Virus record (IMG/VR): IMGVR_UViG_3300047468_000006
Coordinates: 1 to 25,644 of that record
Reading direction: 5' to 3' (one strand)
DNA length: 25,644 nucleotides
DNA from: a virus
Below, in pieces: positions 1 through 25,644 of the stretch; the first letter of the stretch is position 1; each line of letters opens with the position of its first letter. Below the pieces are notes generated by a model, which was given only the letters and a program-made list of their open reading frames with translations, made no database searches and was not told where the DNA came from. The position numbers were made by a program, and so were the translations under genes.

Positions 1-3000
1 ACGTTGCCCTTGCCGATCAGCACGTTCTGACGATCCTTCAGGGCCTTGACCAGCACCTCCTTGCGCTCGTCGCTGAGGCGCTTGCTGTCCCTGATCTTCT
101 TGATGCGTGACGACATCTTCTTGCGGGCGTTCTCTATCGCATTCACGCGCGCTGCGGCTTTGTATTCCTTCGGGTAGTTGCGCATGATCTGCATATAGAG
201 TTCGTTGTCGCCCTCCTTGCGGGCGTCACGCAATGCCTTGCGGATGCGCAGCACCTTGTCCCTGCCCTCGATGTAATCCTGAAGGTCGTTCTTCGCCGTG
301 ATCTGACCGTAGCCCTTGCGCAGGACAGGCAAGTCGCCAGCGTCGATGTCCTCGGGCAGTTCCCCCTGCGCCCCGGAGTACAGCAGCCGACCGGCCCGCG
401 CGAGGAACGTCCCGGTGCCGCCGGTCAGCCAGTCCGATACGTACTCCACTTGGTTGGGCGACCACTCCGCTGCGCCGGGGATGAAGTCCCCCTGCCGCCC
501 CGTCAGCTTGGACATGTAGTCGGCTATGGTCACGTACACGGGGTTGGTGTTGTTCCAGTATTGCTGGCTGCGGTTTTCCTCGGCACCCCCGTAAGGCGAG
601 ATCGGCGGGGCGATGGGCTTACCCGTGAAGTCCTCGTTCTGGTAGAGGTCCACGACCGGATCGAGCACCGTCGGCATCACCCAGTTGAGCAGGGAGTTCG
701 ATCCGCCCCACGGGTTGAGGCTGTCCAGCATGGTGACGCCACCGCTGGTCAGCATCTCACCCATCGTGGCCTTGCCGCGCACCGTCTTGCCCAGCATGCG
801 GCCCCAGTTGTGGATGCTGTTCAGCATGTAGGGCATCGGGAACTTGAAGTAGCCACGCTCGCTGATGCCGAACGGGTCCATGAACACCATGTTATGCTCA
901 AGCACGTAGTCCGGTATCTTGTCGTAGGTCTTCTCGCCGTCGTCGTCCTCCGGTGACAGCATCGACATCAGCGCATCCTGCACGATGCCAGCCACCACCA
1001 CGCCAGCCCACACCTTGCGCATCCTGCCGGACCGGATCAGCGGGTTGAGCAAGGCCATGCTTCCTTGCAGCGACGCATTGAAGAACATGTAGAGGGCCGA
1101 CATGAACGACTTGCTCTCGCCGCCCATGTTGAAGTTGACGGTCAGGTTCTTGGCGGCGAACGCCGCCATCTCCTTGGCCCGCTTCTGGGCCTGTGGATCG
1201 TTGGGTGTGCCGGACATCTCAAGGTACTTGTCGCGCAGCGTCTTGTAGGCAGCGAGGCGGGTGCCGTTCTCGATGGCGACGTTGTAGTCCTCGATGACCT
1301 TGAACAGACCCTTGATCGGTTGCCACACCTTGTGGACAGGACCGGAGACATCCCTATCGAACTCGGCATTGATGCGGTCGAGCGTGTCGCTCAGTCCCTT
1401 GATGCCGAAGACAGCGGTGTGGCCGCCATAGGTCTGGAACTCATCGAACACCTTGCCCCACTCGGAGGTCCGGTCGCCGGACCGCAGCGCCCGCCTCACG
1501 CCGTTCAGTGCCGGGAAGACAGACGCCACCGTCTTCTTCTGGAGGCCCTTCATCTCGTATTCGGACAGGTTGACCATCGCCGACTGGAGATCGCGGAACA
1601 TGTTGGAGATCATGAACTCCGGGTTCCAGCTTGTGCGCGTGGAAGCAAGGAAGCGGTTGACCCCGATCATCCCCTTGAGCAGGGTGTTCAGGCCGGTGCT
1701 GCTGCCCAGCCCTGACTTGGAGCCGAACGCCTTCACGAGACGCGGGTCCTTCAGTTCGATGTAGAAGGTGTGGCCGTCGAGCTTGCCCTTCAGGTATTTG
1801 GGGTTGCTCTCCAAGGACATGTCTGTCCGCTCCACCACCAGTTGGCGCTCACGGTCGTAGCCCCACTTGGTCTTGGGTAGCTGCACGATGTTGGCCACGT
1901 CAGCGAACTCGCCGGGGTTGTCGAGGATCAGTTGCCTGAAGGACCGGGTGACCTTGTTCTTCCCGGCACGGACGATGGCCTCTTGGTTCTGCAACATGGT
2001 GTGAGCGATCAGGTCGGCACCCAAGCTCTGGCGACCCAGCGCCGCCATGTCTTCCTTGCCCCTGATGTTGAAGCCCTTGCCGGTCTTGGCGAGGTCGTCG
2101 GTGATGTCGTCGCGGATCGACGCCTCGGCAAGGAAGCCTCTCAGCGGCACGTAATCCTCATACTCGTTGACCGGGGTGCCGTCGGCGTAGGTCATGTGCC
2201 GGAAGTCGGGGGTCAGCCCAGCCTGCACGCGCACGTCGTTGGTGTTCTTGACGATGGCCCGCAGCCGCGAGCGCACGGAGTTGGGGTTGGTGGCGTCGTT
2301 GAACTGCCGCGCGAACTGCTTGCTGTTGAACCAGTCGAGGATGTGGATCGCCTCGCCGTCCTCCATGCCTGACCCCTGCATGAATTGCAGATCGCGCACC
2401 GGCATCGGGTCGCCATTGGGATCGAGGATGATGTTGCCCTGCGCATCCTTCTTCCACACGGAGTTGCGCTTGCGCATGACGCGGTTCCGTTCGACGGCGT
2501 GCTGCGCATACACGTAGAGTTCCGCCAGCGCGTGCTTGAAGTTCTTGTTGTAGCGGCTGAGGATGTCGTTGGAGTTCTGCGACAGCCGCTTGGCCTCGTT
2601 GTAGTCGGCCTGCGTGACGCCCAAATCTTGGATCGTCTTCTCCATGGTCTTGTAGAGATCGCGTTCGTTAGCCGACAAATGAGCGTCGGTCTGGCTGGAG
2701 TACAGCGTCTCCCGCAGGTAGGTGTCGTTCTCGTTGGAGATGAAGCCGCCGTTCTTCTTGATGCGGTCGATCAGCCTGCCGACTGGCAGCATGCGATCCT
2801 GCAACGAGATGAAGGTGTCATCGACCTTCGACATGGCCGTCTTCCGCGCCTCTCCCGGCGGGAGGACAAGCTGGATCATCTTGTGGATGATGGGCGACAC
2901 GTTGTCGTAGGTGATCTTGCGATGGACATCGGCCAGCGTGTTGATGGGCGGTGTCACTGGCACGCGCTGGCCCAGTGGTGCCGTCGCTGAATACTGTGGT

Positions 3001-6000
3001 GCCGTCGGCGTGACCATCGAGAAGTAGGGCTGGTCGCCCTTCTCGAAAGCCTCCTGCATCTGGGCATTGAAGTCCATGCGGTAGTGGTCATGCTTGAACT
3101 TGGTTGGCTTGGCCCCTTGCTCGCCGCGTATCTCGGTCGAGAAGCCAGCCATGAAGTCACCGGTTTCCGCCCAAGCGATGACATGCTTGAGGTCGGTGTC
3201 CTGCACATCGGCGGCATCGAAGATGGACTGCGCATCGAAGGCCCGCCGGTTGCGGGCGATCTGCGCCACCCGCTGCATCTTGCGGACCAGTTCCGTCGCG
3301 AGGTTCTTGTCCTCGTCGGTCAGGTACTCGTCGTAGCGCAGGGTTTCTTCGTGGCCACGGGTGATCTTGTCGATCATCCGCAGCATTGCCGACGGGGTAG
3401 GGAACAGTTCCCGCACCAGTTCGTCGCTCAGTTCCTGATGCTGGTAGGTGGGCGGCGCATTGACATCATCGGGCAACCAGTCGGGCGGCAGGCTGCTGCG
3501 ATCAACGCTGTTGTGCTCAAGCGTGACACCGAACGGATCGGCCAGCGACCGGGTGATGCCGGGTAGCTTGATCAGGTAGCGGTTGACGATGGGGCCGACC
3601 GACGTTTCACCATAGGCGAGGTACTGCTTGCGGCCCTTGTCATCGACATGCTCGACCAGTTCGCCATAGCCCTCGGTCTTGGACACGCTCTCCGGTGAGC
3701 CGTGCCAAGCGATGCCGTGATAACCATGCTCGACGGCGTGACGGATCATGCGGCGGATCACATAGTCTTCCCAGTTCGACTTGAACGGGGCGTTGGGGAT
3801 TGTCAGGCGCTGGTTCGCATCCTTGATCGCCGTGACCAGTTGCTCATGGGCGTTGAGGTGCGTCTTGATGTCCGCTTCGTTCTGCTGGAGCCGATAAAGA
3901 TGCTCCTGAATTTCAGCCTGCCCATCGTGGGTGGCGTGCCGTCCGGTTTTCTGGATGACCCAGATGTCGTCGCTGATGTTGATCGTGTTCTGCCGCAGCC
4001 GCTCCACCTCCTGATAGGTGGCCCGCGCCTGATCGCGCATCTGCGCGATCTTGTTCTCGACGCTCTTGGAGTAGTAGCCCTTCATCGACCCCCGCTGATG
4101 AAGGTCTGACTGCATCTCTTCGATGAACAGGATGCGCTTCTGGTTGTCCTTCTCGCCCTCCATCACATCCCTGAAGCGGGCGAAGGCCAGCACGTTCTCC
4201 AGCTTGGTGCGGGTCAGCGACTTGGCCGCGACATCGTAGGCCGGGATGGTGATGTGCCCGCCCTTGTCGGTGAAACGTGGCTCGTCCGTGCGCGGCGGGA
4301 AGGTGAAGGCGACCTCGGCATAGTTGTCCAGCCCTGTGCTCTGGCTCTTCTCCACCCAGCGCGGGTCGGCCTGCGCGGCCTCTCCCAGATCGGGATGCTC
4401 GGTGTCGGCAAAGATGGTGGTGGAAACCCGTGGGCCGGATGCCTTGACGTAGTTGAGGATGTCGTTGCGGTGGATGTCCTCTCCCTTGGGCAGGCTCTGC
4501 AACCACGGGATCACACTCAGCCAGTCGAGTTCGGTCTTCTTGATGCCGGTGTCCGGGTTGGACAGCATCTTGATCCAGTCGTTCTTCTTGGCCTTCTCCG
4601 TGGTCACGCTCTCAAGGAAGCGTGCCGACTGGAGGAACAGGTTGTCCGGCTTGAGCAGCGAGAACTGGATGTCGTCGGGATTGCGTGGGCCTAGCCCGCC
4701 ATGGCCGATGTCACGGTCGGCAATACCGCCTTCAAAGATCGTGTCCATCAAATCTTCGGCGTCGTGACGCTGGCTGATCCGCATCAGCTTCTTGATGAAG
4801 TCGGCAATCTTGCGAAGGATGGTGCGCTCCGCGCCACGGAAGGCGGTCGGGTCATTCGTGTAATGACGGACCATCTCGGCGATGGCTTCTTCTTCCACCA
4901 TGGCTGGCGATGAATTCGGGGCGCGCGCCATCGCCCGATCGATCCACGTGTAGGGCCTGCCGGGAACTTTGCGGGTCGTGGCCTGCGCCAGCGTATCCCA
5001 CTCGCCTCTGGTCAGCAGATCGAGACTGCGCAGGGCGTGAACCAGTTCGTGGTTCAGCACGCTCTGCATCAGCTTGGCGCGTTGATCCTCGTTCAGGTTG
5101 GGATTGTAGATGTCACGGGCCAGCGTGATCAGGTTGCGGACGACGCCCCTGAAGCTTTCCCCCTCGGCCTTCGTCTCGATGTTCTGCGAGTGGCCCTCGA
5201 CAATCGCGCCCGGTGCATGCGCGGGTGCCGGGATGTTGGAGGGCGTCGCCACCTCCACCCTGCCCTGACCAAGCACCCTCTCGCCCGCCGCCTTCATCTG
5301 CTGGGCGATGGTCGGACCCACCTCTTCGGTCAGGTCGTGCTCGATGGAGGACTGCTTGTCCTCTACCGACTGCTGCTCGTTCCACTTGTTGCTCTCTGGG
5401 GAGTAGGTCGGGTCGAACCCCTTGAGCGCTTCCTTGGCTTCCGCCTCGGTGGCGAAGCTGCGGACCAGCCGCTCCGATACCGGCTTCTCGGTCTTGTCCT
5501 TGCCGCGCTCATTGTGGGTTTCGTAGATGCCGTGCTGGAGGCTGGACTTGTCCTCGACAACGGTGGCGCTCTTCCGCTTGTCTTCCGGAACCCGCTCGCC
5601 GACATGGGCCAGCGCTTCCTCCTGCGTGGCGAACTTCTTGATCAGCTTCTTGCCATCGATCTCGATGGCAAATGGCTTGGGGTTGCTACTAGGCACCGGG
5701 CGGATGGCAAAGCCACGAACGCGGCGCGGCCTCTTGTTGTCGGTGACCGGGGCATTGGGCGGCAGGATGATGCTGAGATACTGGTCCTTGGTGCCGGTCG
5801 GGTGGGCGTCCTGACGGCGCAGCAACTCGGCAAAGAGGGACTGGGCCTGTTCCTTCTTGACCCCCATCACCTTCTTGATGCGGTCCACCGACACGCTGTC
5901 GTACTCGCCCAGCTTCTTGATGGCGTTGCGGTACTCCGTCTCGGTGCCGAACGTGTCCTTGACCGCTTCGGTCGGCGTGACCTCGGGGACCACGCCACCT

Positions 6001-7439
6001 CGTGGGGTGAGCAGCGCTTCGAACTTGGAGCGGTTGGTCCTGAAGTCTTCGGCCTTGATCCCGTTGCGCACGAGGACCTGTGCATGCTCCGGGGTGACTG
6101 TTGCGAGATCGGCTGGCGAATAGCCAAGTTTCCTGAGGCCAAGCAGTGTCGTGCGAGCGCCCAGCGGCTTGGGGGTGACCGGGTTCTTCTTGACCTCCTT
6201 GTCCTTCAGGCCCTCGGGAAGGCTGGCCTCCTTCTTCGCGATGATCTCGTCGGCATCGATCTCGACAGACGGGTCCGGCGCGGGGGCGATTGCCGCAGGG
6301 TCTGCCACGTCGGGGGCTGGCTCGGTCGGCAGGGCTGAGGCGGGAGGGGTTGCCCCATAGGAAGCCAGCGTGTTGGCTTCCGCATCCACATCCTTCTTGG
6401 CGGCGGCCAGCGCGTTGCGGTCCCTGACCTCGCGCTTGGCAGACACAGCACCGGCACCAGCACCGAAGATGCTCTCGACAATGCCGCCCATGACGGCGCT
6501 CTCGATGTATTCCTTCTTGGCCTCGTCATCCATCAGGGCCATGTCGGCCTGCCAGCGTTCCATTCCCTGCTGGAGGACTTCTTCCGTGGCACCCGACACC
6601 GCCTGCGTTGCGGTGCCGACGCCGACCTTCTTGGCCGTGATGGTCAGCGCTTCCTTGATGCCGACCTCGATGCCGTCCCTGATCTGCTTCTCTGCGGTCT
6701 TGGCGAACAGCCCCTTGCCGACGACCTTCGCGCCATCGACGGCGTAGCCGAGAACCTTCAGCCCCAGCCTGTCCGTCGCCGTCTCGATCACCGACTGCGC
6801 GGCGGTCGCCGTGTACGCCTTGCCCCAGTCCTTGACGTAGCCGTGCTGCTCGATCTGCCGCTCGGCATTGGCGTTGAGCATCTGCGGCGCATAGCCCAGC
6901 ACGCCGCCGATTGCGCCGCCGACAAGGCTACCGGCGGCAGTACCAAGCGGACCGGCAAAGGAACCGATGGCTGCACCTGTTGCGGCACCGGCATACATGC
7001 CGCCCATGCCCATCGCCATGGCGGGGGTGGACTGGCCCAGCGTACCGGCGACAGCCTGTGCCTTCTTGCCGAACCCTTGACTGTCGAGGAAGCCACCCTC
7101 CGGGGCGGCGTAGGTATCCCGCTCCGCACGCTGCGCCTTCGCCGCCTCTTCCCATTCCTTGGCGGCTTCCTTGTTGCCGGTCAGCACCTCGTGGAAGGAC
7201 TGCATGGCGACATCGGCACCCGCCTGCGTCTCGTTCCAGCCACGCGCAATGCCGCTGCCCAGTGTGGACAGGAGGCCGGGTTCCTCTTTCGGTTCGGATG
7301 GTTCTGCCGGGGTGGCGGTCTGCGGACCTTGGCTGAGGATCGCATTGATCTGCGTCATCTCGATGGGCGACGGCTTGTCGCCAGCGATGGTGAAGGAATG
7401 CCGCGCTCCGGTCCTGTCGTCAGCGAAATATTCGCCCAT
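1..7439 (-). CDS. Giant polyvalent-type phage protein, 3' end outside window
   Basis: One open frame runs from ATG at 7439 to base 1 without a stop, at least 2479 codons. The ATG directly abuts the TAA of the preceding gene; its ribosome site is weak, so coupling is likely. Visible parts: a Gly/Ala/Met-rich hydrophobic stretch (about 140-182) suited to membrane insertion; two short modules around FATQEEA (603) and FATEAEA (662); a HELVH motif (797-801) with a downstream EEEAIAE (849-855), the layout of a gluzincin metalloprotease; IEEMQSD (1106-1112) followed by GYHGIAWHG (about 1238), a pair typical of large polyvalent phage proteins; and a region near 1941-2200 (ISNMFRDLQ, then KFPMPYM) resembling polyvalent-protein domain LPD38. 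The last residues are charged and helical, so the stop probably lies just outside. Such proteins are thought to be packaged and ejected into the host. That role is inferred; catalysis is unproven. Confidence 0.85.
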   Translation of the reverse strand, partial: MGEYFADDRTGARHSFTIAGDKPSPIEMTQINAILSQGPQTATPAEPSEPKEEPGLLSTLGSGIARGWNETQAGADVAMQSFHEVLTGNKEAAKEWEEAAKAQRAERDTYAAPEGGFLDSQGFGKKAQAVAGTLGQSTPAMAMGMGGMYAGAATGAAIGSFAGPLGTAAGSLVGGAIGGVLGYAPQMLNANAERQIEQHGYVKDWGKAYTATAAQSVIETATDRLGLKVLGYAVDGAKVVGKGLFAKTAEKQIRDGIEVGIKEALTITAKKVGVGTATQAVSGATEEVLQQGMERWQADMALMDDEAKKEYIESAVMGGIVESIFGAGAGAVSAKREVRDRNALAAAKKDVDAEANTLASYGATPPASALPTEPAPDVADPAAIAPAPDPSVEIDADEIIAKKEASLPEGLKDKEVKKNPVTPKPLGARTTLLGLRKLGYSPADLATVTPEHAQVLVRNGIKAEDFRTNRSKFEALLTPRGGVVPEVTPTEAVKDTFGTETEYRNAIKKLGEYDSVSVDRIKKVMGVKKEQAQSLFAELLRRQDAHPTGTKDQYLSIILPPNAPVTDNKRPRRVRGFAIRPVPSSNPKPFAIEIDGKKLIKKFATQEEALAHVGERVPEDKRKSATVVEDKSSLQHGIYETHNERGKDKTEKPVSERLVRSFATEAEAKEALKGFDPTYSPESNKWNEQQSVEDKQSSIEHDLTEEVGPTIAQQMKAAGERVLGQGRVEVATPSNIPAPAHAPGAIVEGHSQNIETKAEGESFRGVVRNLITLARDIYNPNLNEDQRAKLMQSVLNHELVHALRSLDLLTRGEWDTLAQATTRKVPGRPYTWIDRAMARAPNSSPAMVEEEAIAEMVRHYTNDPTAFRGAERTILRKIADFIKKLMRISQRHDAEDLMDTIFEGGIADRDIGHGGLGPRNPDDIQFSLLKPDNLFLQSARFLESVTTEKAKKNDWIKMLSNPDTGIKKTELDWLSVIPWLQSLPKGEDIHRNDILNYVKASGPRVSTTIFADTEHPDLGEAAQADPRWVEKSQSTGLDNYAEVAFTFPPRTDEPRFTDKGGHITIPAYDVAAKSLTRTKLENVLAFARFRDVMEGEKDNQKRILFIEEMQSDLHQRGSMKGYYSKSVENKIAQMRDQARATYQEVERLRQNTINISDDIWVIQKTGRHATHDGQAEIQEHLYRLQQNEADIKTHLNAHEQLVTAIKDANQRLTIPNAPFKSNWEDYVIRRMIRHAVEHGYHGIAWHGSPESVSKTEGYGELVEHVDDKGRKQYLAYGETSVGPIVNRYLIKLPGITRSLADPFGVTLEHNSVDRSSLPPDWLPDDVNAPPTYQHQELSDELVRELFPTPSAMLRMIDKITRGHEETLRYDEYLTDEDKNLATELVRKMQRVAQIARNRRAFDAQSIFDAADVQDTDLKHVIAWAETGDFMAGFSTEIRGEQGAKPTKFKHDHYRMDFNAQMQEAFEKGDQPYFSMVTPTAPQYSATAPLGQRVPVTPPINTLADVHRKITYDNVSPIIHKMIQLVLPPGEARKTAMSKVDDTFISLQDRMLPVGRLIDRIKKNGGFISNENDTYLRETLYSSQTDAHLSANERDLYKTMEKTIQDLGVTQADYNEAKRLSQNSNDILSRYNKNFKHALAELYVYAQHAVERNRVMRKRNSVWKKDAQGNIILDPNGDPMPVRDLQFMQGSGMEDGEAIHILDWFNSKQFARQFNDATNPNSVRSRLRAIVKNTNDVRVQAGLTPDFRHMTYADGTPVNEYEDYVPLRGFLAEASIRDDITDDLAKTGKGFNIRGKEDMAALGRQSLGADLIAHTMLQNQEAIVRAGKNKVTRSFRQLILDNPGEFADVANIVQLPKTKWGYDRERQLVVERTDMSLESNPKYLKGKLDGHTFYIELKDPRLVKAFGSKSGLGSSTGLNTLLKGMIGVNRFLASTRTSWNPEFMISNMFRDLQSAMVNLSEYEMKGLQKKTVASVFPALNGVRRALRSGDRTSEWGKVFDEFQTYGGHTAVFGIKGLSDTLDRINAEFDRDVSGPVHKVWQPIKGLFKVIEDYNVAIENGTRLAAYKTLRDKYLEMSGTPNDPQAQKRAKEMAAFAAKNLTVNFNMGGESKSFMSALYMFFNASLQGSMALLNPLIRSGRMRKVWAGVVVAGIVQDALMSMLSPEDDDGEKTYDKIPDYVLEHNMVFMDPFGISERGYFKFPMPYMLNSIHNWGRMLGKTVRGKATMGEMLTSGGVTMLDSLNPWGGSNSLLNWVMPTVLDPVVDLYQNEDFTGKPIAPPISPYGGAEENRSQQYWNNTNPVYVTIADYMSKLTGRQGDFIPGAAEWSPNQVEYVSDWLTGGTGTFLARAGRLLYSGAQGELPEDIDAGDLPVLRKGYGQITAKNDLQDYIEGRDKVLRIRKALRDARKEGDNELYMQIMRNYPKEYKAAARVNAIENARKKMSSRIKKIRDSKRLSDERKEVLVKALKDRQNVLIGKGN
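6894..7022 (-). other. Gly/Ala-rich hydrophobic segment in the giant protein
   Basis: Residues about 140-182 are almost entirely Gly, Ala, Met, Leu, Val and Ile, with GxxxG-type spacing. This resembles the glycine-zipper membrane segments found in ejection proteins. It follows a hydrophilic N-terminus and precedes a helical region ending in a TEEVLQQ motif. Membrane insertion is an inference. Confidence 0.5.
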
Positions 7440-8639
7440 TTATTTTGCTGCCGTCAGGTTGTGGTGATTGCCGGGGGCGATGTAGCGGCCCTCGCGCGTA
7501 CCCTGATCGTAGCGCAGCCAGTAGTCGGCCAGCGCTTCCGGTGACACAGGCTCGCCATATTCGTTTGGCTTCAGCAGTTCGAACTCCTTGTCGTACTTGT
7601 GCTGGATGCGGTCGATGTCCTGCTTCTGCAAATCCTTCTTGTCTTCGCGCTTGATCTTCCAGACATCGTAGTCGCGTTCGGTCTTGGCCTTCCACAAGGT
7701 GCGGCGGTCCTCGGACTGGCGGGTCGCCTCGTCGGAGTAGAGATCGAGCGCTGCCTTCCGGCGTGCCAGATCGTAGGCCATCGACTTGTCCTGCTGCTGG
7801 GCATAGCGGTCGGCGCTGTCCTGAAGCGCATTCTGGTATTTCTCAAAGCCCTTGTCGTAGGCCGCACCGGCATTGGCGAAGCCAGCGCCCAGACCCTCCC
7901 ATGATTTCCCGGCCCCGCTGACCATGCCAGCGGCAAGCTGAAGCTGGGCCAGCATGGCTGTCCGTTCGAGGTCGCGCTTGGCGTTGGCGTCGGCCAGCGC
8001 CTGCTTGGGGTTGTTGTCGAAGTCGAGGTCGGGATAGGCCGACTTGATCTTGGACAGATAGTCATCGAACGACAGCGCTCCGGTCGGCGGATCGAGCGTG
8101 CTTATCGGCAACTCCGGAGGCGTGTCGGCCTCTGCCGGAACCGGTTCCTTGGGAAGGTTGGCCGGGTCACCCGGCTTCAGCCGCCACTTCCTCTCCTCGT
8201 CCGGACCGTAGGGGGTGTAGATTTCCTGATACCCCGGATCGGCGTTCGGCCCACCGGGCGGGAAGTTCGTCGGCCATGTCCCGGTCTGGGCTTCTGTCAG
8301 GTAGGGGTCGGTCCATACCGGTTCCTTCGGAACGGTGTTGCCGGGATTGAGCGCATCACGGATGCCCTGATCGGGATCGATGTAGTCACGGCCAAGGCCA
8401 AGCGGATCGCCTGTATCGGTTGGCCGTTCGTCCGGGGGAAGCGCAGGCTCCGGGGGATCAATGCCAAGCAGGGACCGGATGCCCTTCGGCATCGGCGGCT
8501 GGTTGCCTACCCTGTCGCCCTTGCCGGGGCTTGTGAGCGTGTAGTTGAACCGCTCAAGGAAATTGGGGAACCCGGTGACATCGATGACGGGGTTGCCCTT
8601 GGCCCCACCACGCACATCAACGATGCGTCTCTCAGCCAT
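7440..8639 (-). CDS. Phage virion-associated protein, Pro-rich then helical, unknown function
   Basis: The product is 399 aa and I do not recognise a named family. Residues 1-45 form a small conserved-looking head; residues 48-185 are rich in Pro, Asp and Gly, look disordered, and contain repeated PxEP-type runs. Residues 190-355 are Ala/Gln/Lys/Asp-rich and should be helical or coiled coil (for example AMLAQLQLAAGMVSG, then a long charged helix). The ATG at 8639 overlaps the upstream stop by 8 bases and has GGAGAA six bases before it. The stop TAA abuts the ATG of the giant gene. Position between the virion lysozyme and the giant protein suggests an internal virion or ejection protein. This is inference from place and composition. 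Confidence 0.75.
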   Translation of the reverse strand: MAERRIVDVRGGAKGNPVIDVTGFPNFLERFNYTLTSPGKGDRVGNQPPMPKGIRSLLGIDPPEPALPPDERPTDTGDPLGLGRDYIDPDQGIRDALNPGNTVPKEPVWTDPYLTEAQTGTWPTNFPPGGPNADPGYQEIYTPYGPDEERKWRLKPGDPANLPKEPVPAEADTPPELPISTLDPPTGALSFDDYLSKIKSAYPDLDFDNNPKQALADANAKRDLERTAMLAQLQLAAGMVSGAGKSWEGLGAGFANAGAAYDKGFEKYQNALQDSADRYAQQQDKSMAYDLARRKAALDLYSDEATRQSEDRRTLWKAKTERDYDVWKIKREDKKDLQKQDIDRIQHKYDKEFELLKPNEYGEPVSPEALADYWLRYDQGTREGRYIAPGNHHNLTAAK

Positions 8640-10173
8640 ATCGGCTTCTCCGCTGTTGCTCTAGGTAGCCGTGGCGCACCCCGGCGAATTGATTTGGATC
8701 GATGGCGACAGCCTGCCTGACAGGGGCCGCTGGTGGCGGGGCTGCTTGAGGCTTGGTTCCCTTCCCCATCAGTTGCGTCGCCACCATGTACTGGCTCATC
8801 GGGTCGCCAGCCGTGGCGTTCTCGGCTGTGGCCATCTTGGCCCCTGCATCGGTCGCCGCCTCGGCCACGGCACCCTGTGCCGATATCCCCGGCGTGGACG
8901 GACTGCCCAGTGCCGTCTGGTAAGCAGAGACGAACTTGTCTGTGGTCGTGCCCTGCTCGATGCCACCCGGCAGCGAGGTCCACGTGCCGCTGAGAACATT
9001 GCCGACATTGGCGATCTGCTTGGTGTCGCCCGACTGCAAGACCGTCGCAAGATCGCTGCCCGTCTTGGCTTTGTAGACATCGTTGGCATAGTTCCAAGCG
9101 GCGGTGTCCTGCGTCTCAGGACTGAAATCCTTGTAGCCATACTTCTGCGCCTGCTCGTTCCACGTCGGGGCGAGGAACTGGTAGCGGCCAGCGGCGCTGG
9201 ATGTCTGACCCGCATTCGGCCCGGTGTTGATGACATGGCCTAGACCGGGATGCTGACTATAGTCGCTGAATGTACTGCCACCATACATGACGTTATACTT
9301 GCCGCCGCTCTCCGGTCCGGCAATGGTGTCGAGCAAGGCACGCTGGTAGTTGGCTAATCCACCGCCGCCGCCACCGCCCCCACCGCCATAGAGCGACGGC
9401 AGTTCACCGCGCTGGCCTGCTTCGAGAGCCGCCTTCTGTGCTTGCGTCAGACCGCCATAGTCCCACGACCAGCCGCCGCCCGATTGCTCCGGAGACAACT
9501 GATCGAGATGGATGCCGCCGCCATGCATCTCCAACCCAGTGCCGCCGATCTTCTTGGCCTGCCAATACTGGGCGATAGGGGCCAGCGCGTCACCGCTCAA
9601 CCGGTTGCCGTTTGGGTCAACGACGTAGACATCGGCGGCGCGGCCAAGGTCATGACGATGGGTGCCGGTGCGACCCGGACCGCTCTCCGGTTGCCCGCCG
9701 CTGTAGACCTGCATCGAGTAGCCGGGGCCATAAACATCGGCCACCGCCTGCTCAAGACTGCCGAACAGTTCAGGGGTGAGTGGCCGGTTGCGCGTAGCCT
9801 TCTCATTGGCGTAGACGACACCACCTCTCGCTAAAGAGACGATGCCGCCATTGGCGTAACCTTGAGCCTGTTGAGGCAGCGACCCAAGACCTTGGGCCTG
9901 TGGCGGCATCGGTTGCTGGGGAGGGGGTGAGGGAGGAGGCTGCATGCCCGCCCCAGCGAACACCGGCTGGATTGATCCAGAGTATTCTTCGGCCATCGAC
10001 TTGCGCTTGCTGGGATCGCCGCCACCCGTGGTGGCGCGCATCCTCTTACGCTCATGGATTTCTCCAAGCGCCAGCCAGCCGGGGACCATCCCGGTAGGGT
10101 GAGACAACTCACGCTGAAGCGCATGGTCGGGCAGACTTTTGATTTCCGAAAACGCCCGCGCCAGATCGACCAT
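8632..10173 (-). CDS. Virion lysozyme: M15-like peptidase plus GH104 lytic transglycosylase domains
   Basis: The product is 513 aa. Residues 1-65 (PGWLALGEIHERKRMR) resemble a short N-terminal module seen in other phage structural proteins. A Pro/Gln-rich linker ends in GYANGGIVSLARGG (105-118). Residues about 129-246 carry HDLGRAAD (H174, D181) and IHLD (H222, D224), the zinc-ligand pattern of M15-type D,D- or L,D-carboxypeptidases. After a poly-Gly linker (264-272), residues 273-424 align by eye with lambda endolysin R: AGPESGGKY with likely catalytic E288, FSDYSQHP, AAGRYQFL, DFSPETQD and TWTSLPGG. The C-terminus is Ala-rich. Two cell-wall activities in one chain, lying among structural genes, point to a virion enzyme used at entry rather than a holin-linked endolysin. 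The start overlaps the upstream stop as TGATG. Confidence 0.9.
   Translation of the reverse strand: MVDLARAFSEIKSLPDHALQRELSHPTGMVPGWLALGEIHERKRMRATTGGGDPSKRKSMAEEYSGSIQPVFAGAGMQPPPSPPPQQPMPPQAQGLGSLPQQAQGYANGGIVSLARGGVVYANEKATRNRPLTPELFGSLEQAVADVYGPGYSMQVYSGGQPESGPGRTGTHRHDLGRAADVYVVDPNGNRLSGDALAPIAQYWQAKKIGGTGLEMHGGGIHLDQLSPEQSGGGWSWDYGGLTQAQKAALEAGQRGELPSLYGGGGGGGGGGLANYQRALLDTIAGPESGGKYNVMYGGSTFSDYSQHPGLGHVINTGPNAGQTSSAAGRYQFLAPTWNEQAQKYGYKDFSPETQDTAAWNYANDVYKAKTGSDLATVLQSGDTKQIANVGNVLSGTWTSLPGGIEQGTTTDKFVSAYQTALGSPSTPGISAQGAVAEAATDAGAKMATAENATAGDPMSQYMVATQLMGKGTKPQAAPPPAAPVRQAVAIDPNQFAGVRHGYLEQQRRSRYG
9820..9861 (-). repeat. GYANGGIVSLARGG motif in the virion lysozyme
   Basis: This 42-base unit encodes residues 105-118 and sits between the Pro/Gln linker and the M15-like domain. 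It matches the two copies in the 598-aa protein nearly residue for residue. Confidence 0.85.
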
Positions 10174-11315
10174 CAGCCGGTTGTCCCTCTGCCAAGGTTA
10201 TAGAGGGCCTGCATGCCCATGGCTGATCCAACTGCACCGGCAATCGGGTTGCTCGGCGTTGTCGTGTTGGTCGTCTGATTGGTGCCGGTCGGCTGGCTGG
10301 CCAACAGGCTGGACAGGTAGGACAGGTTCTGGCGTGGCCAGTTCTGCTGGTTCTGGAAATCCTCATAGGCAAGATCGAGGCCCTGCTGCTGCCGGTCCTC
10401 CATCGACTGGCCGACACCCAGCATGGTCTGGAAGCGGGACATCTGCATGTCGTCGGACAGCTTCTGGAAGTCGGCCATCTGGCCAGCCGTGTTGCCTGCC
10501 AGTTGCAACCCCTCAAGCCCCAGTTTCTGGCCGCCCTGCCGTAGCTGCTCGGTCTGGCTCTGCGCCTCCATCCCCATCGCTGCGGCCTGCCGCTTGGCTT
10601 CCTCCGCGAACTGGCGGGAGGTTTCACCCATGCCCAAGGCTTCAAGGTTCTTGGATTGGTTAGCCAGCGAAGCTTGCAGTCCTCGACCCTGATCGCGTTC
10701 GAACTGCTGCTGCGCATTCTCGTAAGCCGACTGTCTTCCTTGGACACCGATATCCGAGATGCGCTGCTGCGCTGCGTTGGCTGCGATCTGCTGCTGCACC
10801 GCGCCACGGGAACCACCGAAGGCACCGGTCGTCCCTTGCTGCGCCTTGATCAGCGCCTGTTCTTCGGCGGCGTTGCGTGCCGCCTCGGCCTGCGCCGCCT
10901 CGGTCACCGACGCCATGTAGGGCGACATGTACTGGTTGGCCTGATCCGCGCCGAAGGTTCCAGTTCCGACCTGATCGGCAGCGAACTGACCGGGGTCATA
11001 GGTGCCGCCGTAGGTGTTATCGACCCCGCCAGCTTGGTAGTTCTGGTAGTTCATCGCCTGCTGGCCAACCATGCCAGCGAGAGAGTTGGCGTTGTTGAGG
11101 TAGTCGCCGCCGGACTGCGCAAAGTCCTGCGCCATGTTGAGGCCGGAAGTGGTCTGCCCACTCTGATCCGCCAGCCGCTGCCCGCCATAGGGCTGGTAGG
11201 GGCGCGTGCTTTCGGCCTGCCCCCGCTCCATCAGCGAGGTGTAGTACGGCTCTGCATATTCCGGCAGGCTTGATTGATGGACGGTACTCGTGGTTTCGCC
11301 GCCGCCTTTGCCCAT
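10173..11315 (-). CDS. Phage structural protein, Gln/Ala-rich, with MSPYM and FGGSR motifs
   Basis: The product is 380 aa. It begins with a polar Gly/Thr segment and LPEYAEPYY, then holds a YMSPYM motif (129-134) and GAFGGSRGA (164-172), followed by a long Gln/Ala/Glu-rich helical region (about 136-330) and a Thr/Asn-rich tail. The MSPYM...GAFGGSR combination recurs, to my knowledge, in structural proteins of many short-tailed phages, usually annotated as hypothetical. The ATG at 11315 follows the upstream TGA by one base, and GAGGA lies eight bases before it, so the start is well supported. The exact virion role is unknown; a head-tail or internal protein is plausible from its neighbours. 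Confidence 0.8.
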   Translation of the reverse strand: MGKGGGETTSTVHQSSLPEYAEPYYTSLMERGQAESTRPYQPYGGQRLADQSGQTTSGLNMAQDFAQSGGDYLNNANSLAGMVGQQAMNYQNYQAGGVDNTYGGTYDPGQFAADQVGTGTFGADQANQYMSPYMASVTEAAQAEAARNAAEEQALIKAQQGTTGAFGGSRGAVQQQIAANAAQQRISDIGVQGRQSAYENAQQQFERDQGRGLQASLANQSKNLEALGMGETSRQFAEEAKRQAAAMGMEAQSQTEQLRQGGQKLGLEGLQLAGNTAGQMADFQKLSDDMQMSRFQTMLGVGQSMEDRQQQGLDLAYEDFQNQQNWPRQNLSYLSSLLASQPTGTNQTTNTTTPSNPIAGAVGSAMGMQALYNLGRGTTG

Positions 11316-11316
11316 G

Positions 11317-11742
11317 TCAGTGTTCCTCTAGGGTGTATTCCATGAAGGTGCCGATGGCCTTGCCGCCCCAGTCCTTGACGTAGGCTGCGGTGCCGGGACG
11401 AGCGACCATCTCGATGTACTTGCAGTGGTTGTCCCTGCCGTAGGCTTTGATCTGGTCCCACATCTCGTTGAACCAGTCGTCACGATCCTTGCCAGCGATG
11501 TAGTCGATGCGCCCCACCTTCAGGCCGCTGGGGTAGAGCGTAATGACGAAGACCAGCGAGCCGATGATCTCCTTGTCCCTGATGGCGATCCACAGCGAGG
11601 CCGTGCCATCGATCAGTTGCGTCAGGACATCGACACTGTGGAAGCGGCCATGGGTCCGGATGATCGCCTTGTCCAGCCATGGACTGACCACGTGCCAGAC
11701 GTTGGTGATGTGGTCCTTCGGGACCGCCGAGATGGAAGTCAT
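11317..11742 (-). CDS. GNAT-like acetyltransferase-fold phage protein
   Basis: The product is 141 aa. The pattern of strands and helices fits a GNAT fold: WIAIRDKEIIGSLVFV (about 51-66) as the central strand pair, a VGRIDYIAG strand (76-84), an amphipathic helix with MWDQIKAYGRDNHC, then IEMVARPG and a C-terminal WGGKAIGTFMEYTL segment. A clear Q/RxxGxG/A acetyl-CoA loop is not obvious, so enzyme activity is uncertain. Small GNAT-like proteins do occur inside phage virion operons; T7 gp13 is a possible parallel in size and location. The start overlaps the upstream stop as ATGA (11739-11742). Confidence 0.7.
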   Translation of the reverse strand: MTSISAVPKDHITNVWHVVSPWLDKAIIRTHGRFHSVDVLTQLIDGTASLWIAIRDKEIIGSLVFVITLYPSGLKVGRIDYIAGKDRDDWFNEMWDQIKAYGRDNHCKYIEMVARPGTAAYVKDWGGKAIGTFMEYTLEEH

Positions 11743-12617
11743 CGGCTATTGGCTCCGAACCTGCCGGGTTGCGCATCCCGCCGAAGCCGCTCCGCAAGCG
11801 CCCTGTTCATGGCCGTTGGAGCCGCGACCGACTTTGCCGCGACCGCTGGCGGTGTCCACATGGCCTGCTGCACGGGGGGTGCCACATAGCGGGCAGGCGC
11901 GGTGATCGCCGGAAGCCTGCTGGTCTGGGAGGGGAACATGCCAGCGCCTTGGGATGCCCCGAAGTTGACCGCGTTTGGCGACCAGCCCACCCTAGCCGGT
12001 GCGGCCATGGCGGGAGCCACTGTCCCACCCACGGCATAACCCTGCGGCACCTGATCCGCCATCAGCGGTGCGCCGGTCGGTGCTCCCTGCTGGGCCATCG
12101 CCTGCAATGCGGCCAGTCCTCCCGGCGCTCCAGCCGGGGTGACCCCACCGCCGAAACCGCCGCCATCCATGGGTGGAGGTGGACCACCGAAGTTACGGCC
12201 CATGCCACCCCATCGGCCCATGCCCATGCCACCACCCCAGCCCATGCCACGCTGTTGCGCGCCCCAGCCACCGAAGCGACCGGAGAGGGGGCCACCGGGG
12301 GAAGCACCTGTCGCCGCTGCGGGAGGTGGCATCTGGGCATCGCCTTGCAGGCTGTTGATGCCACCCTCCAAACCCGGAGCCGCAGGCATCGCCTGCTGTG
12401 CGGCACGCTGCTGTGCATACTGCTGTTGCATCATCTGCGGCTGCATGCCGGGAGGGCGCATCGGCATCAGTCCCCTCTGCCCCATCTGGTTCTGCGGCAC
12501 ACCGCCACCACCCTTGCCCATGGAGTTGTAGGATGGCTGTTGGCTCATGCCTGCGCCAGCACCACCGGCACCCATGTTCTGCTGTTGCGGCGCACCGCCG
12601 CCGGTCTTGCCACCCAT
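11739..12617 (-). CDS. Gly/Met/Pro/Gln-rich low-complexity phage protein
   Basis: The product is 292 aa, with no recognised catalytic domain. The first 190 residues are low complexity: GGGAP runs, Met/Gln/Pro-rich stretches, a Gly/Trp/Met patch (about 114-145), and short Pro runs. Residues 193-200 (GYAVGGTV) echo a motif found in neighbouring proteins. The C-terminal 25 residues are more ordered and basic (AMNRALAERLRRDA). The frame is open upstream to 12743, but the ATG at 12617 is chosen because AAGGAA lies six bases before it and it forms a TGATG junction with the upstream stop. The longer Arg-rich extension is only a shadow of the preceding gene. The role is unknown; a disordered virion or scaffolding protein is possible. 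Confidence 0.75.
   Translation of the reverse strand: MGGKTGGGAPQQQNMGAGGAGAGMSQQPSYNSMGKGGGGVPQNQMGQRGLMPMRPPGMQPQMMQQQYAQQRAAQQAMPAAPGLEGGINSLQGDAQMPPPAAATGASPGGPLSGRFGGWGAQQRGMGWGGGMGMGRWGGMGRNFGGPPPPMDGGGFGGGVTPAGAPGGLAALQAMAQQGAPTGAPLMADQVPQGYAVGGTVAPAMAAPARVGWSPNAVNFGASQGAGMFPSQTSRLPAITAPARYVAPPVQQAMWTPPAVAAKSVAAPTAMNRALAERLRRDAQPGRFGANSR
12018..12041 (-). repeat. Diverged GYAVGGTV motif in the 292-aa protein
   Basis: Residues 193-200 resemble the start of the GYANGGIV motif in the adjacent genes; the rest of the unit is not kept. Confidence 0.45.
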
Positions 12618-14413
12618 CACTTGTTCCTTCCCTGTTCGAGGAGTTTGTCTCTGCGCGCCATCTCTGCCCTGATCGCAGGCGCTGTCATGAAGGGATCGCC
12701 AAGCACCGCTCCGCGCACGGAGGGTATCCACCTGTCGGCCCACTCGGGGAGGTCGCCGCCACTGATCGCCTTCTCGGCATCGAAGTCCGGCGTCACCTTG
12801 CCGCCCTCAGCGAGACTGACGATGCCGCCACTGGCGTAACCACGCACCAGCCCGCCGCCATTCAATGCCGGTGGCTGTTGTGGACTTCCTGTCCTCTGGG
12901 TCCGGACCTGATCGACCAAGCCTTGCAGATGGTTCGCCCCGGCATCTGTCGAGCCGTTGCCCAGTCCGGAGACGGCATCGGCAGGGACCACAAACTCGCC
13001 TTGGCTGAGAGCGGCTGGCTGCTGCCCGTCGATCATGGCAGGCACACTGTCGGATTGGCCGTCGCCTGCTGGTGCGCCCATCGACTTGACCCGCATGGCC
13101 AAGTCCTCAAGCGCAGGCTCACCGAACTCCTTGACGAAGGCCAAGAGGATCGGCTGCGGATCGGGCGACTTGCCCTGTATCGCCTCGACCGTCTGGGCAA
13201 TCAGTTCGTGGTCGTTGAGGTTGGAGCCTTCCTTCACCGTGTCTTCCATCGTCGTGTCGGGGGGAGGTTCCGGGGTCGAGCCGATCTGCGAGGTCGGGAA
13301 CGGGCTGGACGGGATGTCCTCCAGCATGGGGGCTTCATCCGTGCCGGGAACACCGTTCAACGGGAAGGTCATGTCCTGTGGCATCTGTGCCTGAAGATCG
13401 ATGCCGCCTCCTTCAGCGAGGCTGACAATGCCGCCATTGGCATAGCCGGGAACCAACCCGCCACGTGCCGCAAAGAACCGGTGTTCGACGGGCATGGCGC
13501 TGGTTCCATAGCCTTCGAGCGAAGACGGGAAAGACGGATCGCCGCCTTCGTACTTAATACCGGATACATCCTTCTTCTTGTCCTTCTTCTTGTCGCCTCC
13601 CAGCTTGCCCAGACTGCCCAGAAGCTGTGCGCCGATGCCCATCGCCATCATGGGGTTCTTCTTGATCCAGTCGCCGAAGCCACCCATGAAGCTCTTACCG
13701 GTTTCCTCCGTCGCGGCCTGCGCTCCGGTGGAGGCGACCGATGTCGGGATCGTCGTCGTCGTGGGCGCGAGCGCTGGTGTCCCTGCGGCAGCGGTGTTCG
13801 CGGCTGTGGTGTAAGCGGGTGCCGAGGTGCCTGCCCCTACCGAGGTCACAAGGGGATTGGCTGCATTCGCGGCAGCGGTGAAGCCGGGTGCCGAGGTGCC
13901 TGCTCCAACCGTCGTGGCCGGGAGTGCCGCCGTGATACCGGGTGATGCTGTCGGGATTACTGCCGTAGAGGCGGGGAGTGCTGCATTGCCGATGGCTCCG
14001 GTCGTGATCGCATCGACACCGATACCGGCACCAGCCCCACCTGCCGAGGCTAGGGTCGGGGCCAGCGTTGCTGCTGTCTCTCCTGCCGCAGCCGCCGCTG
14101 GGGCAAGCGTTGCCAGTTCAACCGCCGGGGCCGCTGTTGCTGCCAGCGTACCCAAGCCTGTAGCTGCTGTTGCCAAAGGAGCCGCAGCCGCCGTGGCCGC
14201 TGCTGCGGCTGGGGCTGCGGCTGAGAACATGGACGCCAAGAAAGGTAGGAAGAAGAACGCTTCTGGCAATCCTGTCTCGGGGTTGATGGTCAGACCGCCG
14301 GGAATGAGCGAGGCAATACCGGCAACCTCTGCGGGGTTGACGTGGATCAGCATGCTGTCCCCGAACCGCCCCTTTGCCGCCAGTTGTTGGGCGGTAAGCC
14401 TCATGTCATTCAT
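12617..14413 (-). CDS. Phage structural protein, Ala-rich, with SxGEFVVPAD motif
   Basis: The product is 598 aa. The N-terminus (GDSMLIHVNPAEV, then TINPETGLPEA) resembles a module shared by many phage proteins. Residues about 61-130 are nearly all Ala/Thr/Pro/Gly, followed by two copies of VGAGTSAP about 23 residues apart. A Lys-rich patch (274-281) separates this from a more ordered half with two GYA(N/S)GGIVSLAEGG motifs (323-336, 525-538) and ALSQGEFVVPADAVSGLGNGS (468-488), a motif I know from many phage structural proteins. The frame is open back to 14482, but ATG 14413 has AAGGA seven bases upstream, and the longer start would lie inside the acidic 44-aa gene. The function is not known. 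Confidence 0.8.
   Translation of the reverse strand: MNDMRLTAQQLAAKGRFGDSMLIHVNPAEVAGIASLIPGGLTINPETGLPEAFFFLPFLASMFSAAAPAAAAATAAAAPLATAATGLGTLAATAAPAVELATLAPAAAAAGETAATLAPTLASAGGAGAGIGVDAITTGAIGNAALPASTAVIPTASPGITAALPATTVGAGTSAPGFTAAANAANPLVTSVGAGTSAPAYTTAANTAAAGTPALAPTTTTIPTSVASTGAQAATEETGKSFMGGFGDWIKKNPMMAMGIGAQLLGSLGKLGGDKKKDKKKDVSGIKYEGGDPSFPSSLEGYGTSAMPVEHRFFAARGGLVPGYANGGIVSLAEGGGIDLQAQMPQDMTFPLNGVPGTDEAPMLEDIPSSPFPTSQIGSTPEPPPDTTMEDTVKEGSNLNDHELIAQTVEAIQGKSPDPQPILLAFVKEFGEPALEDLAMRVKSMGAPAGDGQSDSVPAMIDGQQPAALSQGEFVVPADAVSGLGNGSTDAGANHLQGLVDQVRTQRTGSPQQPPALNGGGLVRGYASGGIVSLAEGGKVTPDFDAEKAISGGDLPEWADRWIPSVRGAVLGDPFMTAPAIRAEMARRDKLLEQGRNK
12624..12629 (-). promoter_or_regulatory. Ribosome binding site deciding the start at 12617
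   Basis: AAGGAA lies six bases before ATG 12617, supporting this start over the longer frame beginning at 12743. Confidence 0.7.
12800..12841 (-). repeat. GYASGGIVSLAEGG motif, copy in the 598-aa protein (second)
   Basis: This 42-base unit encodes residues 525-538 and differs from the first copy by one residue. It follows a GGGLVR linker, as the first follows GGLVP. Confidence 0.85.
13406..13447 (-). repeat. GYANGGIVSLAEGG motif, copy in the 598-aa protein (first)
   Basis: This 42-base unit encodes residues 323-336. It is closely similar to units at 12800-12841 and 9820-9861, both in protein and in DNA. Confidence 0.85.
13787..13912 (-). repeat. Duplicated GAGTSAP unit in the 598-aa protein
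   Basis: VGAGTSAPGFTAAAN and VGAGTSAPAYTTAAN lie 23 codons apart, and the underlying DNA (GGTGCCGAGGTGCCTGC on the plus strand) is almost identical. This is a small, probably recent tandem duplication. Confidence 0.75.
14024..14233 (-). repeat. Alanine-rich low-complexity tract
   Basis: Residues about 61-130 of the 598-aa protein are mostly Ala with Thr, Pro and Gly. It follows a short hydrophobic stretch (FFFLPFLASMF). It could be a helical hydrophobic or flexible spacer; nothing in the sequence decides. Confidence 0.65.
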
Positions 14414-14821: not shown

Positions 14822-15307
14822 TTACCCGATCAGATGTCCTGAGAACTGGCCGTAGTTCAGGTCTGTATACATGGACCCAGCACCAGTTTCGTAGCGCACT
14901 GTTGCGTAGTCATTAGCGTTCAAGAAAATATGCCCCTCGGCAATGAGCGACCACCACGTCGAGGCTGGCTTGTTGGTGATGAACCTGCTGCCACCATAAC
15001 CAGCACCGTTCACATATAGTGCGGTGCGGTACTCACCTGCGTTGGCATTCGGTGCCAGTTGGTGAAACCTAAGGAAGTACCTTCCGGCGACCGGCGCGGT
15101 GAACCTGCCATTGGCCACGTTGTAGGCAGACCCGATGTTGAAGATCGCGGTGAGGAAGATGATATCCGCTCCCGCTACGGTGGCATTGTTGTTGTTGGTG
15201 CTGAAGGCCACCTGAAACGGTTTCAGCACCCTGCCTGCCGTGTCGATGGTCATGTAGTTGGTGCCAGCTATGCTGAGATTTCCGGTGCTGCTGAAATCGA
15301 TGCTCAT
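14822..15307 (-). CDS. C1q-like domain phage protein, copy 2
   Basis: The product is 161 aa and looks like a single C1q/TNF-like jelly-roll domain. Signatures are GRFTAPVAGRYFLRF (about 67-81), GEYRTALYVNG (91-101) and the C-terminal YGQFSGHLIG, matching the FxGxLI end typical of C1q domains. Such domains trimerise and bind ligands, and in phages they cap fibres or decorate virions. It is a paralogue of the gene just upstream, with the same start pattern (M-x-x-DF-x-ST). ATG 15307 is chosen over an upstream extension to 15418 because it makes an ATGA junction with the previous stop and begins at the shared N-terminus. Confidence 0.85.
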   Translation of the reverse strand: MSIDFSSTGNLSIAGTNYMTIDTAGRVLKPFQVAFSTNNNNATVAGADIIFLTAIFNIGSAYNVANGRFTAPVAGRYFLRFHQLAPNANAGEYRTALYVNGAGYGGSRFITNKPASTWWSLIAEGHIFLNANDYATVRYETGAGSMYTDLNYGQFSGHLIG

Positions 15308-15777
15308 ATCAAGTGTCCTCCGAACGCCTGATAAGAACCATTGACGTGCGACACCCCGCCCAATGTCCGGTACATGCCAACGGTGTCGCCTGCGGCAAGC
15401 TGGATATGCCCGCCGCATTCCATGGTCCAGTACCCGGCGACCTTTGTTTGGATGAAGTAGCCGCCTGAGTAGACACCACCGTTCTTGAGCAGCGAATGCC
15501 TGTACTCCCCGACCGGGGCGCTCTCAGCGAGGAAGTAGGCAACGAAGTAGTACACCCCGCCGACCGGTGCGGTGAAAAGTCCGTTGCTTGCGTTGTACCC
15601 GCTGCCGATGTTGTAAACTATCGTGGGGAAAACGACGTATGCGTTTATGCCGAAGGCCCCGGTGTTGCCTACAGCGGAGAACGACGGTGTGTTTGGCTGA
15701 AGGATGGCCGAGCTACCGATAAGCTGACTGGTTCCGGACTGGCTCAGATCAATCGTCGATGCGAAATCAACGCCCAT
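15304..15777 (-). CDS. C1q-like domain phage protein, copy 1
   Basis: The product is 157 aa and fills one C1q-like domain. The core signature is GLFTAPVGGVYYF (about 66-78), followed by GEYRHSLLKNGG, GHIQLAAGDTVGM and the terminal SYQAFGGHLI. C1q folds form compact trimers that act as fibre tips or receptor-binding heads. ATG 15777 has GAGGT five bases upstream and overlaps the end of the preceding fibre gene by 11 bases. Its neighbour (14822-15307) is a diverged tandem copy, so the pair may form alternative or mixed trimers. Receptor binding is inferred. Confidence 0.87.
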   Translation of the reverse strand: MGVDFASTIDLSQSGTSQLIGSSAILQPNTPSFSAVGNTGAFGINAYVVFPTIVYNIGSGYNASNGLFTAPVGGVYYFVAYFLAESAPVGEYRHSLLKNGGVYSGGYFIQTKVAGYWTMECGGHIQLAAGDTVGMYRTLGGVSHVNGSYQAFGGHLI

Positions 15778-19583: not shown

Positions 19584-20470
19584 CCGACACTCACGCTGAA
19601 AACTTCGATGTCGTCTTCGGTCAGGATCAGGCCGGTGGACTTGATCCGGATCACCGTGTTCGCACCATACTTCAGGATCACGTCGCCCGTGGCCACCTCG
19701 ATTGACCACGGCGTATCGACGGCCACCCAAGCTAGGTTCTTGCGGACATACTGCTTGCCGTCATTGGGTGCGTCCACGAACTGGATTTGCGAGGCATGCA
19801 GCCCATCAAGCAGATCGGCATCCAGCCCCGACGCGGCCCCCATGTTTCCGGAGTTCCAAATCTTGCGACCGGAGCCAGCCTGCGTGACGACGTAGAGATC
19901 GGTGTTTGTGGCACTGGTCGAGAGCCTGACATTCCAGTCGTTGGTGTCGGTGTTGGTGTTGTGGAAATCGATGTTCTGCCCGACCTCCATGTTGCCGGTG
20001 ACCGAGACGAAGGGTGCGATGTCCCAGCGCTGGATACTGCTCGACGTTGTGGTCAGGCTGTCGTTCGACCAGACCGAAGCGCCATCCGTGAAGAGAAGCT
20101 TCCACTGCGTCCCCGGCGATCCGTTCGGGATGACGGTGTAGGTTGTGCCGCTGCCCGTGGTGAAGGTCAGGTTGAAATTACCCGTCGTCCCGTTCTGCAC
20201 GAAGTACATCTTGGAGACGGTCGGGATGGTGATGGTGCGGTGGTTGGTCAGGACGCCCGTGAACTTCAGGAACATCGGGCGCGACTGATCGGTCGATCCC
20301 TGCACCGTGGTCAGCGTCAGGTTGGCATCGGCCAGCGCGATGGTCTTGGCTCCAGCAACAGCCTCCTCCAGCAGGGAGTAAGCATTGTTCGCCTTCGTAC
20401 CCCAAGCGCCCCGGTTCTCGCCGGTCCCCTGAAGCTCAAGACGGAGATTGGTCGTATAGGTGCTGGCCAT
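19580..20470 (-). CDS. Tail-fibre protein with GLDADLLDG signature
   Basis: The product is 296 aa. The N-terminus (STYTTNLRLELQGTGENRG, then WGTKANNAYSLLEEAVAG) is a common phage fibre or baseplate attachment segment. A beta-rich middle (about 60-145) includes TNHRTITIPTV and FVQNGTTGNFNLTF. It ends with KIWNSGNMG and GLDADLLDGLHASQ (215-228), a frequent motif of tail-fibre shafts, and a short strand-rich C-terminus. The ATG directly follows the TGA of the 1335-aa gene. No good Shine-Dalgarno is visible, so translation probably depends on coupling. It likely connects fibres to the tail or forms a shaft. Confidence 0.88.
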   Translation of the reverse strand: MASTYTTNLRLELQGTGENRGAWGTKANNAYSLLEEAVAGAKTIALADANLTLTTVQGSTDQSRPMFLKFTGVLTNHRTITIPTVSKMYFVQNGTTGNFNLTFTTGSGTTYTVIPNGSPGTQWKLLFTDGASVWSNDSLTTTSSSIQRWDIAPFVSVTGNMEVGQNIDFHNTNTDTNDWNVRLSTSATNTDLYVVTQAGSGRKIWNSGNMGAASGLDADLLDGLHASQIQFVDAPNDGKQYVRKNLAWVAVDTPWSIEVATGDVILKYGANTVIRIKSTGLILTEDDIEVFSVSVG

Positions 20471-24478: not shown

Positions 24479-24485
24479 CTATCCC

Positions 24486-25640: not shown

Positions 25641-25644
25641 GAGA

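Follow-up and report, generated by a model that had tools for sequence, protein, structure and literature searches.

The window analysed here is a viral record of 25,644 bases (IMG/VR IMGVR_UViG_3300047468_000006), with its genes on the minus strand. It contains a run of genes transcribed in the order p598, p292, a 141-amino-acid (aa) protein, ej380, lys513, a 399-aa protein and a giant LPD38 protein. Three of them, p598, p292 and lys513, encode a recurrent glycine-rich peptide of consensus [G][YF]AxGG[hydrophobic]Vx[L/F]xxGG, referred to below as the motif. Positions of the genes, of the domains discussed and of the four motif copies are given in Table 1.

Table 1. Genes, domains and motif copies in the window (positions refer to the whole 25,644-base stretch).
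Feature	Position	Strand	Description
p598	12617..14413	-	598 aa, Ala/Gly-rich; N-terminal GDSMLIHVNPAEV domain, C-terminal GEFVV domain; two motif copies
Motif copy 1, GYANGGIVSLAEGG	13406..13447	-	p598 residues 323-336
Three-helix segment	13082..13213	-	p598 residues about 401-444, between motif copy 1 and GEFVV domain; predicted local distance difference test (pLDDT) score of the block 95-97
GEFVV domain, DSVPAMIDGQQPAALSQGEFVVPADAVSGLGNGSTDAGANHLQGLV...	12836..13060	-	p598 residues about 452-526; confident in AlphaFold2 model
Motif copy 2, GYASGGIVSLAEGG	12800..12841	-	p598 residues 525-538, directly after GEFVV domain
p292	11739..12617	-	292 aa, Gly/Met/Gln/Pro-rich; positional relative in locus L310 at 3176-4405
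Degenerate motif copy, GYAVGGTVAPAMAA	12000..12041	-	p292 residues 193-206
141-aa protein	11317..11742	-	GNAT-like by eye only; conserved within module
ej380	10173..11315	-	DNA-ejection-protein family, phrog_4287, E 1.1e-17; without motif
lys513	8632..10173	-	N-terminal domain, Pro/Gln linker with motif, M15-like part (by eye), lysozyme part
lys513 conserved N-terminal domain	10024..10173	-	SLPDHALQRELSHPTGMVPGWLALGEIHERKRMR
Motif copy, GYANGGIVSLARGG	9820..9861	-	lys513 residues 105-118
399-aa protein	7440..8639	-	Module member, without motif
Giant polyvalent protein	3..7439	-	LPD38, PF18857, E 7.3e-31; module end, cut by contig end

A preliminary description of the window had reported that a 14-residue peptide recurs in these three otherwise unrelated proteins. 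All four copies were found at the positions and with the peptides reported. The best 14-mer shared by p598 and lys513 was identical at 13 of 14 residues, whereas shuffles that preserved local composition reached at most 10/14 (200 pairs). The host proteins match different families or none: residues 277-462 of lys513 match the endolysin family phrog_90 (E 1.8e-24), and no Pfam or PHROGs family was matched by p598 or p292.

The same description had noted that the likeness persists in the DNA. The three strong copies, which are identical at 12-13 of 14 positions as peptides, do match at 29-35 of 42 bases. However, only 5-7 of the codons for identical residues agree, versus 5.3-6.1 expected from the codon usage of the window, and the copies differ by two-step changes at serine (AGC/AGT versus TCT) and leucine (CTC versus TTA). 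The similarity in the DNA is therefore dictated by the peptide, which is alike because it is constrained and not because it was recently copied. A recent DNA duplication of the motif is disfavoured by these codons.

The closest relative of the module, in locus L310, is 56-70% identical over lys513, ej380 and much of p598, and all three of its corresponding genes carry the motif. Its p598 protein has YAQGGIVTLADGG and YAQGGIVGLKKGG at the two motif places (10/14 residues of copy 1 and 9/14 of copy 2), and its lys513 protein has GYHNGGVVGLARGG (11/14 of the window copy). The p292 copy, weak if taken alone, is backed by the p292 relative of this locus, which carries LYRGGIVSLANGG in place of the degenerate GYAVGGTV of the window. 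In a second relative, G001, copy 1 of p598 keeps 13/14 residues, and GFQGGGIVTL is found at the same place in lys513. Overall, orthologues of the window genes retain 6-13 of the 14 motif residues, versus 28-55% of the flanking residues (except for p292, where the aligner missed the motif). The motif thus outlasts its flanks, and its loss from orthologues, which would have spoken against it, was not seen in L310 or G001.

IMG/VR was then searched for the motif, written as a degenerate DNA pattern that encodes G[YF]AxGG[hyd]Vx[hyd]AxGG (hyd, hydrophobic), the control being the same pattern with its codons reversed. The pattern matched 108 stretches and the control none. At 73 of the loci found in this way, the remaining genes of the locus contained the shorter unit [YF]AxGGx[VI] 21 times and never its mirror image; across 36 contigs, whole or long, the unit was counted 78 times versus twice for the mirror image. 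PHROGs names of the motif-bearing proteins included endolysin, lytic tail protein, tape-measure protein, transglycosylase and virion structural protein. Members of the p598 family were found in IMG/VR loci, and one was present in 30 of 34 contigs that had themselves been chosen by the motif.

Two sets of loci were next collected independently of the motif. For the first, homologues of p598 or lys513 were sought with peptides lying outside the motif, and the genes of the resulting loci were scored for [YFM]xxGGx[VI]. It was present in 13 of 15 genes of the GEFVV family (p598-type) and in 6 of 7 genes encoding the N-terminal domain of lys513, versus only 7 of 99 other genes (Fisher test, 1e-13). 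Five of these seven others encode the N-terminal half of p598 as a gene of its own, and the lysozyme-position gene of locus L008 accounts for one more. The second set consisted of 80 loci retrieved with no query other than the N-terminal 60 residues of a different lysozyme-position protein; it replaced an earlier conservation figure, obtained from genes selected by the motif and set aside as biased. In this set, the motif was present within 200 residues downstream of the N-terminal domain in 73 of 74 genes, and its mirror image in none. It was also found in 52 of 66 GEFVV-family genes, located in 62 loci two to four genes upstream of the lysozyme-position gene, versus 9 of 225 other genes (GEFVV versus other, Fisher test, 6e-35). 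Because some loci are near-identical to each other, the independent cases are fewer than both P values suggest. Six of the nine other genes lie in six loci where the pattern for the N-terminal domain failed, and have the same motif layout; they appear to be unrecognised members of the N-terminal-domain family. The motif is therefore far from equally common in the remaining genes, and the multi-gene distribution remarked on in the preliminary description is a property of many phages rather than of this one. In summary, the motif is real and directional, is maintained at the level of the peptide, and in many phages is concentrated in two to three adjacent genes of the module.

Two side observations concern the p598 family. 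At five loci (L003 5376-8143, L004, L006, L007 and L010), two adjacent genes take the place of p598, one for the N-terminal and one for the C-terminal domain, and both halves carry a GG motif. Three GenBank records (OQ594354, OL906435 and PP438419), each of 65,014 bases, gave identical match statistics with p598 under different stated hosts (Synechococcus, Planktothrix and Planktothricoides), and in two of them the matching gene is named as a calcium-binding or solute-binding protein. They may represent one phage, or one contaminant. OQ594354 is Synechococcus phage MinM2, a cultured relative that shares the module.

Conservation along the lysozyme-position family was determined on 51 non-redundant proteins of the second set. 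Identity was 88% in the N-terminal domain (the region used as search query), 55% in the linker preceding the motif (29% after shuffling), 76% in the motif and 23% in the rest of the protein. The aromatic residue was Tyr in 47 and Phe in 4 of the 51 proteins, and the Ala and Val were kept in 48 and 49. The C-terminal part varied with the member, being SLT, M15, M23 or VanY. In this family, a constant part made up of the N-terminal domain and the motif is thus joined to interchangeable peptidoglycan hydrolases.

In the AlphaFold2 model of p598, both motif copies had low confidence and flanked the confident three-helix segment and GEFVV domain. For lys513, only the N-terminal helices were predicted with moderate confidence, the motif lying in a low-confidence stretch ahead of the enzyme part; this model (six sequences, mean pLDDT 39.7) was too poor for use beyond the helices. 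One of the folding alignments was computed without its GenBank row. On these models, the motif is probably located in disordered linkers. A fold search with the C-terminal model of p598 gave no useful match in the PDB, and the best matches in a viral fold library were all uncharacterised proteins of uncultured phages.

A recognised DNA ejection protein (ej380) lies next to a hydrolase (lys513) in this gene set, and the gene order recurs in IMG/VR relatives. We therefore call it an entry, or ejection, module, the products of which would be present in the virion, judging from family matches and synteny. A search for proteomics of this phage or its relatives returned none. Nothing was matched by a megablast of the module against phage records, nor by a sequence search of p598 against the PDB. 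A scan of genome contigs with a single protein matched one locus only, so no host was inferred. The window has some other features of note. By eye, the giant protein (3-7439) contains a HELVH site resembling that of zinc proteases; it also gave a weak glycine-zipper match near its N terminus. At 20471-25643, a short repeat of the type TNLxTxSxGNESVxxxxxVxAS is present, by eye, in many diverged copies in a 1335-aa protein and in its neighbour. Two small proteins encoded side by side at 14822-15777 (157 and about 165 aa) seem to be diverged duplicates of each other, and their relatives in L310 and G043 resemble both.

What might the motif do? Our preferred but tentative reading is that it may serve the entry module as a linear motif for docking, or as a sticker. 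The module proteins would be packaged in the virion, and the motif, by forming an aromatic-Ala-Gly-Gly turn followed by a short hydrophobic strand, would tether the hydrolase to the GEFVV protein, or both of them to one shared partner, inside the virion or at the time of ejection. Different hydrolases could then be exchanged on a constant adapter. The docking or packaging tag put forward in the preliminary description is in this sense possible.

Several observations weigh against a docking role. No docking partner was identified. The motif is absent from the HTVC010P genome, from the 20-kb stretch of P22 examined and from the HK97 tape-measure C-terminus shown, so it is no universal need of ejection. 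In the p598 family, other GG sites are at least as well conserved as the motif, which exceeds its flanks only somewhat (0.41 versus 0.385 and 0.33), so that the position of the motif in the linker turns over. Finally, within a genome, the form of the motif in one of the two genes does not follow its form in the other (6.59 versus 6.42 identities out of 14). A conserved partner, or self-association, is compatible with both the missing covariation and the turnover of position, and a plain spacer is likewise compatible with them.

Such a flexible spacer is the main rival explanation and a possible, if less probable, one. A glycine hinge with small hydrophobic residues would let the domains unfold and thread through portal and tail, with no specific partner. 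The location in linkers, the low model confidence, the turnover of position in the p598 family, where conservation does not exceed that of other GG sites, and the lack of covariation within genomes are all in keeping with it. However, the order of the residues is strongly directional (78 versus 2 and 108 versus 0 in the counts above), and the Tyr/Phe, Ala and Val kept in the lysozyme-position family are not required of a mere spacer.

A second, rather unlikely explanation starts from a small GEFVV element of tape-measure type that is naturally flanked by the YAxGG unit; the unit would have become detached and been passed to neighbouring genes by domain shuffling. In many p598-type proteins, the unit leads directly into the second half of the GEFVV element (GYADGGPVNMRNGSFVVDARTVSELG), and in lambda gpH the segments FATGG, GEFVF and GYATGG follow each other in that order. 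With hhalign, the p598 GEFVV profile was aligned to gpH with a probability of 54-79%, and to the tape-measure-like L053 with 85%. Against this, the gpH alignment spans only 26-27 columns, the lysozyme-position genes carry the motif beside a different conserved N-terminal domain and have no recognised GEFVV domain, and no trace of shuffling was found in the DNA.

The spreading linker cassette that had also been envisaged, a DNA segment recently copied between genes by recombination, is disfavoured and now very unlikely. The three strong window copies are closer to each other than some are to their orthologues, as such copying would predict, but the codon comparison described above contradicts it, and no excess of similarity within genomes was found over many contigs. 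Cleavage at SLAE-GG or LARGG by a maturation protease is even harder to credit: LxE/GG presumably resembles prohead-protease sites, but the residue before GG is variable (E/N/R/D/K) and no protease was identified. Chance similarity can be dismissed, since, for all that the host proteins are Gly/Ala-rich, it is excluded by the shuffles, the reversed controls and the conservation in orthologues.

A second peptide was encountered in the same kinds of phage, as a C-terminal tag, GG...RADGxAxKGKTKGRxV, common to several small basic proteins (G020 45389-48364, G023 38781-41459, G022 19011-19939; loci L312-L391). A scan for it returned at least 120 stretches, of which 80 loci were read. In 77 of these, 120 tagged frames were found, and in 118 of them no more than 15 residues separate the tag from the C terminus. 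Of the 77 loci, 33 contain at least two tagged genes. Similar bodies were seen in none of 45 compared pairs, and up to four otherwise dissimilar proteins of one phage bear the tag. Tagged genes lie near capsid- or connector-like genes in both neighbourhoods read (G020 and G028). The tag was not found in the window, G043 or G001. It adds to the case for peptide tags in these phages generally and says nothing direct about the window motif. No description of a GYAxGG-type motif or of the C-terminal tag was found in the literature (open-access papers).

How the proteins that travel inside the particle are selected is understood for a few models (T4, P1, T7 and P22). It is conceivable, though we think it unlikely, that environmental phages use a small peptide-tag code for their internal proteins, in which the linker GYAxGGxVxF marks the entry module and the C-terminal GG...RADGxAxKGKTKG marks unrelated small basic proteins. 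If so, the tags would serve as signals for sorting or docking, and phages could exchange cargo enzymes freely. The motif on two to three adjacent entry genes, together with a constant adapter bearing exchangeable cell-wall hydrolases, offers a simple test for a general docking signal. It also provides a sequence handle for annotating entry proteins that have no known family match.

Four known systems can be compared with the module. The first is the ejection-protein family phrog_4287: ej380 is a member, one motif-bearing A2 protein also matches it, and the motif gene of locus L075 resembles the family by eye, whereas ej380 itself lacks the motif in the window.

The second is lambda gpH. Its C-terminal region contains the GEFVF element (GKYEPAGIVHRGEFVFTKEATSRIGVGNLYRLMR / GIVHRGEFVFTKEATSRIGVGNLYRLMR) between its two GG segments, which, by eye, looks like the motif-GEFV-motif layout of p598. 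Homology of the GEFVV element with this region is plausible from sequence comparison. However, the profiles align over a short stretch only and with middling probability, and the module and synteny of gpH are unlike those of p598. Of the Pfam tape-measure domains TMP_2 and Tape_meas_lam_C, both match gpH and none matches p598. In the solved lambda tail, gpH was modelled only at the helix 818-842, beyond the motif region (PMC10721106).

The third is the T7 ejectosome, in which gp16 acts as a 'molecular tape' that stitches gp15 (PMC8954989). There too, an extended stretch of a hydrolase-bearing ejection protein is thought to keep another ejection protein in place. Unlike the window motif, this tape is not a short recurrent segment common to both proteins, and no similarity of the window proteins to either was established.

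A possible functional analogue is provided by the capsid targeting sequences of T4 IPIII and P1 DarB, the latter being N-terminal and that of T4 being described as an N-terminal packaging signal (PMC9024508). Short peptides of this kind direct the proteins that bear them, which are otherwise different, to the virion; a targeting role for the window motif would follow by analogy only. The motif differs in being internal, located in linkers and repeated within one protein, its copies starting at residues 105, 193, 323 and 525 of their proteins rather than at the N terminus. As with the targeting sequences, several unrelated proteins carry it, namely p598, p292 and lys513 in the window and in L310, and two gene families in many phages.

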